Shown here piece by piece: positions 39,768 through 44,659 of a DNA stretch of 64,000 nt. Numbering within the stretch: position 1 is the stretch's first letter; each line of letters starts with the position of its first letter. Origin of the DNA: Vibrio gallaecicus (lineage in GTDB: Bacteria > Pseudomonadota > Gammaproteobacteria > Enterobacterales > Vibrionaceae); contig NZ_AP025490.1 in the NCBI RefSeq assembly GCF_024347495.1, positions 248,001 through 312,000 on the forward strand, read 5' to 3'. Made by a program: the position numbers and the translations under genes. The notes beneath the pieces are model-generated. The model made no database searches, was not told the DNA's origin, and saw nothing but the letters and a program-made list of their open reading frames with translations.

Positions 39768-40313
39768 ATGTCCTTTAGTGATCAGAACCTAATTTGGGTT
39801 GATCTTGAGATGACAGGTCTTGATCCTGAAACTCATAAAATTATTGAAATTGCTTCTATCGTTACAGATAGCGAGTTGAATATTCTCGCCGAAGGACCGG
39901 TACTTGCTATCCATCAGTCTGATGAAGAGTTGGATAAAATGGATGAATGGTGTACTACTACTCACACTGGAAGTGGCTTAGTTGCACGTATAAAAGAAAG
40001 CTCTGTTACTGAGCAAGATGCCATTGACCAAACTATTGAGTTTTTGGAAAAGTGGGTACCAAAGGGCAAATCTCCAATTTGTGGAAATAGCATAGGACAA
40101 GATCGCCGTTTCTTGTATAAACACATGCCAGAATTAGAGCAGTATTTCCATTATCGCTACATTGACGTGAGTACTTTGAAAGAACTTACTCGTCGTTGGA
40201 AACCTGAAGTTCTTGATGGTTTTTCTAAAACAGGAAGCCATCTTGCACTAGATGACATTCGTGAATCTATCGCTGAATTACAGTATTACCGTAAAACAAT
40301 CATAAGTATTTAG
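39768..40313 (+). CDS. orn: oligoribonuclease
   Basis: A 181-residue DEDDh 3'-5' exonuclease that degrades 2-5-nt RNAs, including the pGpG made from cyclic-di-GMP. The metal ligands are visible: [10 protein letters not shown] (Asp and Glu of ExoI), SIGQDRRFL (ExoII Asp) and [11 protein letters not shown] (ExoIII His/Asp). The length equals E. coli Orn. A terminator follows immediately, then the tRNA promoter, so it is not co-transcribed with the array. Confidence 0.97.
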
Positions 40314-40488: not shown

Positions 40489-40564
40489 GCGATACTAGCT
40501 CAGTTGGTAGAGCGCAACCTTGCCAAGGTTGAGGTCATCGGTTCGAACCCGATGTATCGCTCCA
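40489..40564 (+). tRNA. tRNA-Gly(GCC), copy 1
   Basis: 76-nt cloverleaf with acceptor GCGATAC/GTATCGC, anticodon arm CAACC-TTGCCAA-GGTTG giving GCC, T-loop GTTCGAACC and encoded CCA. First gene of the array; its downstream spacer differs from the following copies. Confidence 0.96.
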
Positions 40565-40615
40565 ATTTCTTTTCGAAGAAATAGTATTTTCATTGTACTT
40601 AACAATGCATCCGGA

Positions 40616-40692
<77 letters not shown>

Positions 40693-40751
40693 CATTACAG
40701 TTAAACGTTGGTTTGATGCTTCTTAGCAAACAAGATAAACGGTTAGCTTAT

Positions 40752-40827
40752 GCGATACTAGCTCAGTTGGTAGAGCGCAACCTTGCCAAGGTTGAGGTCA
40801 TCGGTTCGAACCCGATGTATCGCTCCA
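40752..40827 (+). tRNA. tRNA-Gly(GCC), copy 2
   Basis: Same 76-nt sequence as copy 1, anticodon GCC, CCA encoded. With its flanks it is near-identical to copy 6, 1210 bp downstream. Confidence 0.96.
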
Positions 40828-40930
40828 AATTCTATTCTTAGAAGCTGTCTCTTTGAGAAAGTGCTCAGAATGAAAATGGTTTAGTCTCATTGTCTTAAAC
40901 GGTAATGATGCGAAAAGAGAAACATCCGGA

Positions 40931-41007
<77 letters not shown>

Positions 41008-41067
41008 CATTACAGTTAAACGTTGATTTGATGCTTATTTAGCAGACAAGATGAACGGTTAGCTTAT

Positions 41068-41143
41068 GCGATACTAGCTCAGTTGGTAGAGCGCAACCTT
41101 GCCAAGGTTGAGGTCATCGGTTCGAACCCGATGTATCGCTCCA
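41068..41143 (+). tRNA. tRNA-Gly(GCC), copy 3
   Basis: Same 76-nt sequence, anticodon GCC, CCA encoded. The unit repeats copy 2 at an offset of 316 bp. Confidence 0.96.
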
Positions 41144-41246
41144 AATTCTATTCTTAGAAGCTGTCTCTTTGAGAAAGTGCTCAGAATGAAAATGGTTTAG
41201 TCTCATTGTCTTAAACGGTAATGATGCGAAAAGAGAAACATCCGGA

Positions 41247-41323
<77 letters not shown>

Positions 41324-41383
41324 CATTACAGTTAAACGTTGATTTGATGCTTATTTAGCAGACAAGATGAACGGTTAGCTTAT

Positions 41384-41459
41384 GCGATACTAGCTCAGTT
41401 GGTAGAGCGCAACCTTGCCAAGGTTGAGGTCATCGGTTCGAACCCGATGTATCGCTCCA
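41384..41459 (+). tRNA. tRNA-Gly(GCC), copy 4
   Basis: Same 76-nt sequence, anticodon GCC, CCA encoded. Followed by the short 51-nt spacer type. Confidence 0.96.
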
Positions 41460-41510
41460 AATTCTCTCTTTTTAGAGAACAGTTTCATTGTCTTAAACAA
41501 TGCATCCGGA

Positions 41511-41587
<77 letters not shown>

Positions 41588-41645
41588 CATTACAGTTAAA
41601 CGTTAATTTGATGCTTCTTAGCAGAAAGATGAACGGTTAGCTTAT

Positions 41646-41721
41646 GCGATACTAGCTCAGTTGGTAGAGCGCAACCTTGCCAAGGTTGAGGTCATCGGTT
41701 CGAACCCGATGTATCGCTCCA
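41646..41721 (+). tRNA. tRNA-Gly(GCC), copy 5
   Basis: Same 76-nt sequence, anticodon GCC, CCA encoded. Followed by a slightly diverged long spacer. Confidence 0.96.
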
Positions 41722-41825
41722 AATTCTATTCTTAGAAGCTGTCTCTTTGAGAAAGTGTTCAGAATGAAAATGGTTTAGTCTCATTGTCTTAAACGATAAT
41801 GATGCGAAAAAGAGAAACATCCGGA

Positions 41826-41902
<77 letters not shown>

Positions 41903-41961
41903 CATTACAGTTAAACGTTGGTTTGATGCTTCTTAGCAAACAAGATAAACGGTTAGCTTAT

Positions 41962-42037
41962 GCGATACTAGCTCAGTTGGTAGAGCGCAACCTTGCCAAG
42001 GTTGAGGTCATCGGTTCGAACCCGATGTATCGCTCCA
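41962..42037 (+). tRNA. tRNA-Gly(GCC), copy 6
   Basis: Same 76-nt sequence, anticodon GCC, CCA encoded; counterpart of copy 2 in the 1210-bp duplication. Confidence 0.96.
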
Positions 42038-42140
42038 AATTCTATTCTTAGAAGCTGTCTCTTTGAGAAAGTGCTCAGAATGAAAATGGTTTAGTCTCAT
42101 TGTCTTAAACGGTAATGATGCGAAAAGAGAAACATCCGGA

Positions 42141-42217
<77 letters not shown>

Positions 42218-42277
42218 CATTACAGTTAAACGTTGATTTGATGCTTATTTAGCAGACAAGATGAACGGTTAGCTTAT

Positions 42278-42353
42278 GCGATACTAGCTCAGTTGGTAGA
42301 GCGCAACCTTGCCAAGGTTGAGGTCATCGGTTCGAACCCGATGTATCGCTCCA
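42278..42353 (+). tRNA. tRNA-Gly(GCC), copy 7
   Basis: Same 76-nt sequence, anticodon GCC, CCA encoded; counterpart of copy 3. Followed by the short spacer type. Confidence 0.96.
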
Positions 42354-42404
42354 AATTCTCTCTTTTTAGAGAACAGTTTCATTGTCTTAAACAATGTATC
42401 CGGA

Positions 42405-42481
<77 letters not shown>

Positions 42482-42539
42482 CATTACAGCTAAACGTTGA
42501 TTTGATGCTTCTTAGTAGGCAAATTTAACGGTTAACTAA

Positions 42540-42615
42540 GCGATACTAGCTCAGCTGGTAGAGCGCAACCTTGCCAAGGTTGAGGTCATCGGTTCGAACC
42601 CGATGTATCGCTCCA
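42540..42615 (+). tRNA. tRNA-Gly(GCC), copy 8 (variant D-loop)
   Basis: 76-nt Gly tRNA with anticodon GCC and encoded CCA. It differs from the other copies by CAGCTGG in place of CAGTTGG in the D-loop, the only internal change I see among the nine. Confidence 0.95.
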
Positions 42616-42676
42616 ATTTCTTTCTTAGGATTGATGTTGGGAATATAGAGTCATTAACTTAAATAATGCATCCGGA

Positions 42677-42753
<77 letters not shown>

Positions 42754-42830
42754 CATTACAGTTGAACGTTTAATACTGTCTTGCAGTAAGAACTTAGCTT
42801 CTTAACTGAAAAGAAGAACGGTTAGCTCAT

Positions 42831-42906
42831 GCGATACTAGCTCAGTTGGTAGAGCGCAACCTTGCCAAGGTTGAGGTCATCGGTTCGAACCCGATGTATC
42901 GCTCCA
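42831..42906 (+). tRNA. tRNA-Gly(GCC), copy 9
   Basis: Same 76-nt sequence as copy 1, anticodon GCC, CCA encoded. Last gene of the array; no obvious intrinsic terminator follows. Confidence 0.96.
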
Positions 42907-43119
42907 ATTTATCTCTAAGCCCTGAGTTTTGAGATAGACCTATACCATTAGGTCACGCTCTTTCTTTAATGCTGCGAAGCATAATCCCCCAAAATAAACA
43001 ATTAATCCTCCTTTTCGGTGGATATTTTTGCGTCTCAAATATGAATTAGCAAATGGAATGCTAGTAACTATCAGATCTATATAATTGAATCTGAGGTTTA
43101 TTCGCACCTGTAAACAGAC

Positions 43120-43147
43120 TTATCCACAAAATCCCAATTGTGGATAA
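43120..43147. promoter_or_regulatory. pair of inverted perfect DnaA boxes
   Basis: TTATCCACA at 43120-43128 and its reverse complement TGTGGATAA at 43139-43147 sit inside a 12-bp-armed palindrome (ACTTATCCACAA ... TTGTGGATAAGT). Both match the strongest DnaA box consensus at 9 of 9 positions. Confidence 0.82.
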
Positions 43148-43393
43148 GTTAGTTGATAAACTTGTTTCAGAGCTAATTATTATTGTCTATATAAAAGATC
43201 TTTTTTTGATTCTTGTTTGTTGAAAAAGTAACAATCAAACATAACTGTTTGTTTTTGCTTGAATATTGTGTCAAGTGGCTATTTTTACATTAGAATTTAA
43301 AGATCGTTAAGCTCTTGTTTTTTGATCTTAGTCATTTATTAGGAATGTGTTTAACTTTCACGATATGCTTGAATCCCACCAACTTATTAAACC

Positions 43394-43402
43394 TTTTCCA
43401 CA
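43394..43402 (+). promoter_or_regulatory. third DnaA box
   Basis: TTTTCCACA fits the relaxed consensus TTWTNCACA, about 250 bp right of the inverted pair. Confidence 0.55.
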
Positions 43403-43534
43403 TTATTGAATTTGAGAACAATATCAAATATTGCAGTATAAATTTGTGCAGGAAAGAGATGTCATTGCGTATGAAGCCATTATCAATTCTGGCTGAGTAG
43501 TGATTAACAATGGCGATGTATAAAGACAGGTAGG

Positions 43535-44659
43535 CTATGCGTCTCTTGGTAGCCCCTTTTCAACAATACGAATCAATCGTTGTTTTTTGCTTGCTACCTT
43601 ACTTGTACCTGTAGGTAACTGTTGAGACTGTTGCTCTAATGCCCATAAAATATGAACATCTAATAATTCACTTTTTCCTAAGTTACTTTCTAAGGTATCG
43701 ACGATTCGTTGTTGGTAAGGAGCGTTCCCCATTGCGATGAACAAGTTGCGAAGCCATTGTTGGTGCCCAATACGTCGAATTGCTGAGCCTTCCATCTTTT
43801 TCAGGAATGTTGTTTCGTCCCAGCTTGCGAGTTGAACAAGGTCTGAGTCTTGAAAATCGTCTCTACGGTGGAAGTCTTTTTGGATGCTAACTTCAGCGTG
43901 TCGATTCCAAGGGCAAACTAGTTGACAGTCATCGCAGCCATAAATCCTATTTCCCATTGGTTTTCTGAATTCCTCAGGGATAATTCCATCGAATTCAATC
44001 GTAAGGTATGAGATGCACTTTCTAGCATCAACAATTCCTTCTTCGATAATTGCTCCCGTAGGGCATGAAGTGATACAAGCTGTGCACTTCCCACATTCAT
44101 CAACGCTTGGTGTGTCTACCGGCAATGGGATATTAACGAGTAGCTCTCCGAGGAAAAACCAAGAACCTGACTCTTTATCTAGAATTAAGGAGTGTTTACC
44201 TGTCCAACCTAGTCCTGCCTTTTGCGCTAGTGGGCGCTCTAATATCGGAGCAGAATCAACAAAAGGACGGTAGTCTAAACCTTCCACTTCTTGCTCGATT
44301 TTTTGCCCTAGTTTTTTAAGCTGGTTACGAACGAGTTTATGGTAATCGCGACCAAGGGCATAACGGCTGATGTAAGCTTGGGTAGTATCATTTAGATTAG
44401 AAGCAAACTGAGCTTCAGGAGGAAGGTAATCCATTCGAGCACTGATTACTCGAACGGTGCCCGGATGAAGTTCATCAGGACGTGCTCGCATCATTCCATG
44501 GCGTGCCATCCAATCCATTCCACCATGGTAGCCTTTGTCTAACCAATCTTGCAGCGCTGCTTCGTGTTCGCTTAAGTCAATGTCACAGATCCCTACTTTT
44601 TGGAATCCGAGCTCTTTGGCCCAAACTTTAATTTGTTCAGCAAGTTGGTCAAGGTTCAT
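43535..44659 (-). CDS. queG: epoxyqueuosine reductase
   Basis: A 374-residue cobalamin-dependent iron-sulfur enzyme for the last step of queuosine synthesis in tRNA (epoxyqueuosine to queuosine). Two [4Fe-4S] motifs are visible: CGKCTACITSCP, and a second set in CDDCQLVCPWN. The N-terminal DUF1730-type domain (GYHGGMDWMARH) and RYALGRDYHKLVRNQLKKL are conserved. Minus strand, divergent from tsaE. In E. coli nnr lies between queG and tsaE on the tsaE side; it is absent here. Confidence 0.95.
   Translation of the reverse strand: MNLDQLAEQIKVWAKELGFQKVGICDIDLSEHEAALQDWLDKGYHGGMDWMARHGMMRARPDELHPGTVRVISARMDYLPPEAQFASNLNDTTQAYISRYALGRDYHKLVRNQLKKLGQKIEQEVEGLDYRPFVDSAPILERPLAQKAGLGWTGKHSLILDKESGSWFFLGELLVNIPLPVDTPSVDECGKCTACITSCPTGAIIEEGIVDARKCISYLTIEFDGIIPEEFRKPMGNRIYGCDDCQLVCPWNRHAEVSIQKDFHRRDDFQDSDLVQLASWDETTFLKKMEGSAIRRIGHQQWLRNLFIAMGNAPYQQRIVDTLESNLGKSELLDVHILWALEQQSQQLPTGTSKVASKKQRLIRIVEKGLPRDA

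Follow-up and report, generated by a model that had tools for sequence, protein, structure and literature searches.

In E. coli, the replication starter DnaA is switched off at a DNA site called datA. Does the gap between a tRNA array and queG in Vibrio gallaecicus contain a counterpart of this site? This had been proposed in an earlier note on the window, by which we mean the whole stretch of 64,000 nucleotides that was analysed and in whose coordinates all positions are given. Judged from sequence comparison, the region 42907–43534 is probably the Vibrionaceae ortholog of datA, with a proposed role in the hydrolysis of DnaA-bound ATP. The two parts of this reading differ in strength, since the position and the parts of the site are very likely orthologous to those of datA, and the activity is likely to be the same as that of E. 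coli datA.

The interval comprises 628 bp between the end of the tRNA array (42906) and the stop of queG (43535), and its AT content was 68.2% compared with 58.8% across the window, which confirmed the size, the position and the AT-richness given in the earlier note. The gap was also shown to be preceded by a tRNA array as described there, but this array was not made up of Gly-tRNA genes only: Gly(GCC) and Met(CAT) genes alternate in it (Table 1), and the Met genes are of a kind that we take to be initiator-like, since their anticodon stem has three G-C pairs. The array contains nine Gly and eight Met genes, compared to three Gly genes in E. coli. The order psd-rsgA-orn-tRNA-Gly-site-queG-tsaE was the same as in E. 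coli MG1655, which has nnr in addition, and the site lies downstream of orn and the tRNA-Gly genes and before queG, the position of datA.

The distance from the origin was similar too. In the contig of 3,292,782 bases, taken as circular, dnaA (16–1413) and mnmG (3,283,339–3,285,186) place the site about 9% from the origin region, and E. coli datA lies approximately 467 of 4,642 kb from the origin (about 10%). Among 54 contigs of more than 2.4 Mb, drawn from the Vibrio loci of the comparison together with the window, the distance from the site to the nearer contig end had a median of 9.3%, with 43 of the 54 at 6–13%; these distances assume a contig start at the origin, and at least five contigs (0.39–0.46) probably start elsewhere.

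Table 1. Coordinates of the features at and around the candidate datA locus of V. gallaecicus.
Feature	Position	Strand	Remarks
orn	39768..40313	+	upstream neighbour as in E. coli
tRNA array, 17 genes (9 Gly-GCC, 8 Met-CAT)	40489..42906	+	ARAGORN; directly upstream of site, co-directional
Weak DnaA box CTGTAAACA, 3 mismatches to TTATNCACA	43108..43116	+	position of E. coli TTGTAAACA (box 7)
DnaA box 2, TTATCCACA	43120..43128	+	position of E. coli datA box 2; perfect in 104/111
Box B, inverted DnaA box TTATCCACA	43139..43147	-	10-bp gap to box 2; perfect in 101/111
Box C, weak inverted DnaA box TTATCAACT	43151..43159	-	3-bp spacer to box B; second double box
Conserved GATC within AAAGATCTTT	43197..43200		
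IHF-type site AAACAAACAGTTA, one mismatch to WATCAANNNNTTR	43242..43254	-	orientation as E. coli datA IHF site
Conserved GATC, first of pair 22 bp apart	43302..43305		
Conserved block TTTTTTGATCTTAGTCATTT, with second GATC of pair	43318..43337		
Box D, one-mismatch DnaA box TTAAACACA	43346..43354	-	22 bp past second GATC
Box 3, DnaA box TTTTCCACA	43394..43402	+	position of E. coli datA box 3; 274 bp from box 2
Conserved TTGAGA..TCAA element	43412..43427		
queG	43535..44659	-	downstream neighbour as in E. coli

Conservation was studied in 113 loci, which consisted of 80 from further Vibrio genomes, 31 from Vibrionaceae (Vibrio, Photobacterium, Aliivibrio, and Enterovibrio), one more of the family, and the window. 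All 113 (111 unique) were included in a motif table, and 108 (106 unique) in an alignment without L012, L013, L014 and L016, lost at the tblastn step, and L184, which was fetched later. The five DnaA boxes of the earlier note were found where it had placed them, at 43120 (+), 43139 (-), 43394 (+), 43098 (+), and 43346 (-). Its expectation that the boxes are conserved while the surrounding bases drift was borne out across the 111 unique Vibrionaceae loci for all boxes save that at 43098. Thus, of its two one-mismatch boxes, the one at 43346 was shown to be nearly invariant, and the one at 43098 (TTATTCGCA, + strand) was dropped because of a conservation of just 0.1–0.7 bits.

Mean information per column was 1.54 bits for boxes 7 and 2, 1.64 for boxes B and C, 1.42 for box D, 1.66 for box 3, 1.20 for the IHF site, 1.10, 0.96, and 1.32 for the first, second, and third GATC blocks, and 0.91 for the element at 43410–43427, compared with means of 0.12–0.35 for the sequence between and around the sites. 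Conserved sites in drifted surroundings indicate that this footprint marks sites and not a gene. A 61-aa frame at 43315–43500 was rejected as a small protein, as it crosses unconserved sequence (0.14 bits over 43440–43500).

On the left side of the locus, box 2 is preceded by a weak box at a distance of 3 bp, the spacer being GAC in the window and in 76 of 111 loci, and GAG in 28. This corresponds to the essential double box 7-2 of datA (weak box, 3 bp, TTATCCACA), with a weak box that is degenerate in the window: it ended in ACA in 110/111 loci and showed at least three mismatches to TTATNCACA in 44/111, window included, compared to two in E. coli. Over the stretch TGTAAACAGACTTATCCACA, 19 of 20 bases of the double box agreed with TGTAAACAGAGTTATCCACA of E. 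coli datA. The sequence ACAGAGTTATCCACA (ACAGAG-TTATCCACA) was also found at R4 of oriC in E. coli and, in the genome under study, at the polA-like site, so that the 19/20 match is partly a general feature of double boxes; identity alone is no proof of homology, and position, order and the other elements carry most of the weight. The double boxes at oriC R4 and polA have the weak box, the 3-bp spacer and TTATCCACA in common with the Vibrio site, but the gene context is different. The double box near 110.9 kb in the same genome (L164 1920–1952; G000:C1) is located, as in E. coli, upstream of a polA-like gene, whose identity we presume from its first residues. In E. coli ChIP-seq, DnaA was reported to favour double boxes with 2–3 bp spacing, and the datA double box cTTGTAAACAgagTTATCCACAg to be a site of high coverage (PMC11317965).

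A second double box, consisting of boxes B and C, faces the first one. The gap between box 2 and box B was 10 bp in 92/111 loci and 9 bp in the other 19, and box C showed one or two mismatches to TTATNCACA in 100/111. Among 38 loci of E. coli type (see below) none had an inverted box with at most one mismatch at the distance of box B, and two had an inverted box starting 48 bp from box 2.

In the window, the inverted repeat formed by the facing boxes folds into a long stem (-21.4 kcal/mol, z -5.0), as might be expected of an RNA feature, such as a hairpin, an attenuator or a processed 3′ end of the tRNA transcript. Pairing within the 9-bp boxes was kept in 107–111 of the 111 loci, but both arms remain DnaA boxes, the conservation of which alone also accounts for the pairing. 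On the + strand, the bases flanking the inverted pair (43119 and 43148 in the window) were CC in 66 loci, GG in 20, GC in 8, CG in 6, and other in 11. This next pair outward thus co-varies against pairing, with CC or GG in 86/111 loci and pairable bases in 15/111, and the window with its long stem belongs to the six loci that, with CG, are exceptions. On an approximate tree, built from about 450 bp of the region after masking of the two bases, the 86 loci with CC or GG changed between these states about 12 times. Such coupled, non-pairing change argues against a long RNA stem as the selected feature, and a longer stem looks avoided. Selection against a longer palindrome, or a need for the two double boxes to be unlike each other, is suggested instead. 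Besides, no Rfam family other than the upstream tRNA scored above threshold, and no terminator-like site was detected in 42800–43560; the tRNA array reads straight into the candidate datA. An RNA feature is considered extremely unlikely.

The facing boxes could also be those of a DARS-type site, which reactivates ADP-DnaA. Box 2 facing B and C resembles DARS boxes I, II, and III, with a double box of 3-bp spacing coming after an opposed box, as in the core of E. coli DARS1 and DARS2. However, the opposed gap was 9–10 bp in 111/111 Vibrionaceae loci compared to 5 bp in E. coli DARS1, the genomic place is not that of DARS1 or DARS2, the position and order of the 42907–43534 site are those of datA, and the same genome has a separate DARS2-type core with 5/3-bp spacing at mutH-rppH. 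A DARS function of the queG-side site is thus regarded as very unlikely. Upstream of the mutH-rppH core (L165 1814–1839; G000:C1; genes named by eye) lies a perfect match to the IHF consensus, TAACTTGTTGATT, and the core is in line with the conservation of DARS2 reported in V. cholerae (PMC8682772, PMC6090056).

Could such a group of boxes arise by chance? Relaxed boxes (TTWTNCACA) were not enriched in the window, with 10 observed and 8.4 expected, and the 100 listed of the 183 places with TTATNCACA in the genome included at least six clusters in which two or three such places fell within about 620 bp, the interval being one of them. Other dense clusters were located at the polA-like site, at the mutH-rppH site and, in one case, inside a reading frame. 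In the earlier note equally dense boxes in random intergenic regions of the genome were said to count against a datA. On this point the picture was mixed: clusters as dense do exist elsewhere in the genome, but the facing pair at 9–10 bp spacing is unique; the density of the boxes is ordinary, and their arrangement is unusual. TTATCCACA-N5..15-TGTGGATAA was found at two places in the 5.13-Mb genome, whereas the reversed control gave none. The second of these inverted pairs of perfect DnaA boxes (L166 1393–1415; G000:C1:1963892–1963914) has a 5-bp gap, is DARS-like and sits between genes that by eye were named ABC-permease-like and FocA-like.

With a gap of 9–10 bp, the pair of TTATCCACA and TGTGGATAA had one and only one occurrence per genome in 104 of 116 Vibrio genomes, and a control match was found in 1/116. 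The queG-side flanks, available for 80 of 116 other queG-bearing genomes, contained the exact inverted pair in 72 cases and the pair with one changed base in 8. Since 71 of the 72 genomes with an exact flank pair were included in the genome scan, the single copy of these 71 is the one beside queG. The 12 genomes lacking the exact pair comprised eight with one changed base, G026 (about 1.0 Mb), which gave no queG hit, and G025, G043, and G079.

Between the left cluster and box 3, the earlier note had seen no perfect IHF consensus and regarded this as the main weakness of the datA reading. One mismatch does remain in the window, but the predicted IHF-type site that is present there between the positions of boxes 2 and 3 had been overlooked. 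At this column the IHF consensus was matched with no more than one mismatch in 79 of 106 loci, whereas the best column in 200 shuffles reached 28 and none of the 200 column shuffles matched the observed count. On the + strand its columns read C/T in 106/106 loci, A in 105, A in 99, four variable positions, T/A/C, T in 106, G in 105, and A/T. The same scan recovered the E. coli datA IHF site as a perfect match in the same orientation. The best relaxed match was located 118–125 bp from box 2 in 106/111 loci, and missed the usual place in the other five; where the relaxed match was full, the distance was 120–125 bp in 81 of 82 loci (122 bp in the window). In 29/111 loci the best match was one mismatch off even the relaxed consensus, and in 3/111 it was three off the strict one. 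A second IHF site at 43308 was rejected as too variable, with at most one mismatch in only 31/106 loci.

Box 3 lies beyond the IHF-type site and points in the same direction as box 2, like the essential box 3 of datA. It was a perfect TTTTCCACA in 102 of 111 loci and had at most one mismatch in all of them, and its distance from box 2 was 261–281 bp in 111/111. The part between the IHF-type site and box 3 includes box D, which is of the TTAANCACA type: T, G, and T were found in 106/106 loci, G in 105 and TAA in 106/106, and these invariant columns show that the non-consensus base is retained. The arrangement GATC-22 bp-GATC-22 bp-TGTG of box D (43302–43354 in the window) was present in 96 of the 111 Vibrionaceae loci. 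The GATC pair together with box D is possibly an input for Dam/SeqA.

Vibrionaceae are known for their second chromosome, and conserved GATC motifs in a layout that was restricted to this family among the loci examined would also fit a site for RctB, the initiator of chromosome 2, either crtS-like or an iteron. This reading is most improbable, as the interval 42907–43534 contains neither TGATCA nor TTACGG, and within 300 bp from box 2 the orthologs showed TGATCA in 20/111 and TTACGG/CCGTAA in 1/111. The candidate datA is like crtS in that crtS lies on chromosome 1 and its duplication is believed to influence a replication initiator, but crtS is found at another place and binds RctB, whereas the candidate has no known RctB motif. 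V. cholerae ChIP-seq puts crtS at VC0764–VC0765, and the available passages of that paper describe no named site beside queG (PMC11711613).

As a yardstick for the datA reading, 38 loci of E. coli type were selected for carrying the core (34 from Enterobacterales, MG1655, and three others). Boxes 7, 2, and 3 of E. coli were taken to be TTGTAAACA, TTATCCACA, and TTATTCACA, because these are all co-directional and span 183 bp from first to last, as in the published minimal datA (PMC5742627). In the yardstick loci box 3 (at most one mismatch) was located 159–165 bp from box 2 in 38/38, and an IHF match (at most one mismatch) 64–67 bp from box 2 in 32/38. The claim of the earlier note that the Vibrio locus is the syntenic equivalent of datA was upheld, as the Vibrionaceae loci under comparison all in all retain the gene order, the double box, the IHF-type site and a box 3 of the same direction. 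E. coli datA and the Vibrio site thus share the neighbourhood, the weak box 3 bp before TTATCCACA, the orientation of the IHF-type site, the direction of box 3, and a distance of about 9–10% from the origin.

The layout itself differs from that of E. coli, where box 2 is about 65 bp from the IHF site and about 161 bp from box 3, compared to 122 and 274 bp in the window. As each arm around the IHF site is about 57 bp longer, the locus was filed as a variant and not under the E. coli layout. The Vibrio site furthermore has the second, inverted double box 9–10 bp from box 2, a box 3 that is TTTTCCACA and not TTATNCACA, and the additional module GATC-22-GATC-22-box D. The facing second double box, the longer arms and the GATC module were shown to be a conserved Vibrionaceae layout. 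The datA reading of the earlier note is thus supported and largely right, but the note had not recognised that spacing, second double box and GATC module set the layout apart from that of E. coli. Spacing is reported to be important for the function of E. coli datA (PMC4585315, PMC10380432), for which reason function in Vibrio is something that we infer, although the Vibrio spacing itself is constant.

If the locus acts as datA does in the DDAH system of E. coli, ATP-DnaA would bind the double box at 43108–43128 and IHF would bend the DNA at 43242–43254, so that DnaA on the left cluster may contact DnaA on the box 3 side (43346–43402) and hydrolysis of the DnaA-bound ATP would be stimulated. 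Hydrolysis would follow the early duplication of the site and thereby prevent oriC1 from firing again. In Vibrionaceae the left cluster of this putative device would be two double boxes facing each other, and with arms that are each about 57 bp longer the loop would be built on a different scale. Relevant proteins are encoded in the genome: ihfA/ihfB (IhfA, IhfB) and SeqA are present, and the single DnaA match is 83.5% identical to that of E. coli, with 91 of 94 positions identical in domain IV, so that the DNA-binding domain is nearly the same, and residues R227, R281, R285, L290, and R334 kept.

The same facing double boxes should give a strong DnaA site, and the locus might only titrate DnaA or act as a roadblock, with strong binding that limits read-through of the tRNA transcript to queG and no ATP hydrolysis. 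The finding that the array runs into the site with no terminator-like site in 42800–43560 would suit such a role, as does the report that E. coli box 2 dampens read-through of the tRNA transcript (PMC10950094). The oriented IHF-type site, box 3 at its fixed distance, and the conserved box D and GATC blocks would then be left unexplained, and titration or a roadblock alone is unlikely. DnaA-box clusters in Bacillus and Streptomyces can be set beside the Vibrio candidate by description, as they too lie outside oriC; we know of no neighbourhood that they have in common with it. They are reported to be DnaA sites that restrain initiation from outside oriC (PMC5742627).

For the datA reading a bolder version may be considered, which we find rather doubtful: that Vibrionaceae carry a re-engineered datA, with the facing double boxes as left anchor, a loop in which either arm beside IHF has gained about 57 bp, and the 22-bp-phased pair of Dam sites with a weak box, in which passage of the fork (hemimethylation, SeqA) gates the timing of DnaA inactivation. 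If true, the DNA itself would carry the timing cue that is still being sought in E. coli, and this in organisms with two chromosomes to coordinate. In our reading of the literature, which was no survey, the block to re-initiation on Vibrio chromosome 1 has been less studied than the control of chromosome 2 via passage of crtS. A datA with exact coordinates would make DnaA inactivation in Vibrio directly testable, and the added double box, the longer arms and the GATC module, as variation supplied by nature, would allow the working of datA to be studied by comparison. With its Gly- and Met-tRNA genes, the array that runs into the site extends an idea from E. coli that links tRNA transcription and replication control. 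No description of a datA in a Vibrio was found among the matches listed for the open-licence literature, in which the term is hard to search since it matches "data", and an earlier mention is possible. In the passages available from the chromosome 2 literature, datA comes up solely for comparison with RctB sites (PMC3937223, PMC6090056).

Sites of this kind were not found beside queG in every family. Among 49 non-Vibrionaceae queG loci an E. coli-type site was present in 34, and no core was found within at most 1.2 kb beyond queG on one strand in the other 15, from Shewanella, Pseudoalteromonas, Psychromonas, Rheinheimera, Bowmanella, and Aliiglaciecola. In 20 further loci from across the order, the one locus of the same family had the Vibrio layout, whereas of the 19 from other families 16 had no core in about 1.4 kb searched on both strands and three had an E. 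coli-type core. Two loci (L176 and L185) had no core even though a Gly tRNA adjoins queG, which shows that this neighbourhood does not always bring the site with it. Two loci from two other families (f5 and f11), L183, with no tRNA within the stretch fetched, and L174, contained E. coli-type cores with box 3 at 161 and 165 bp from box 2, respectively.
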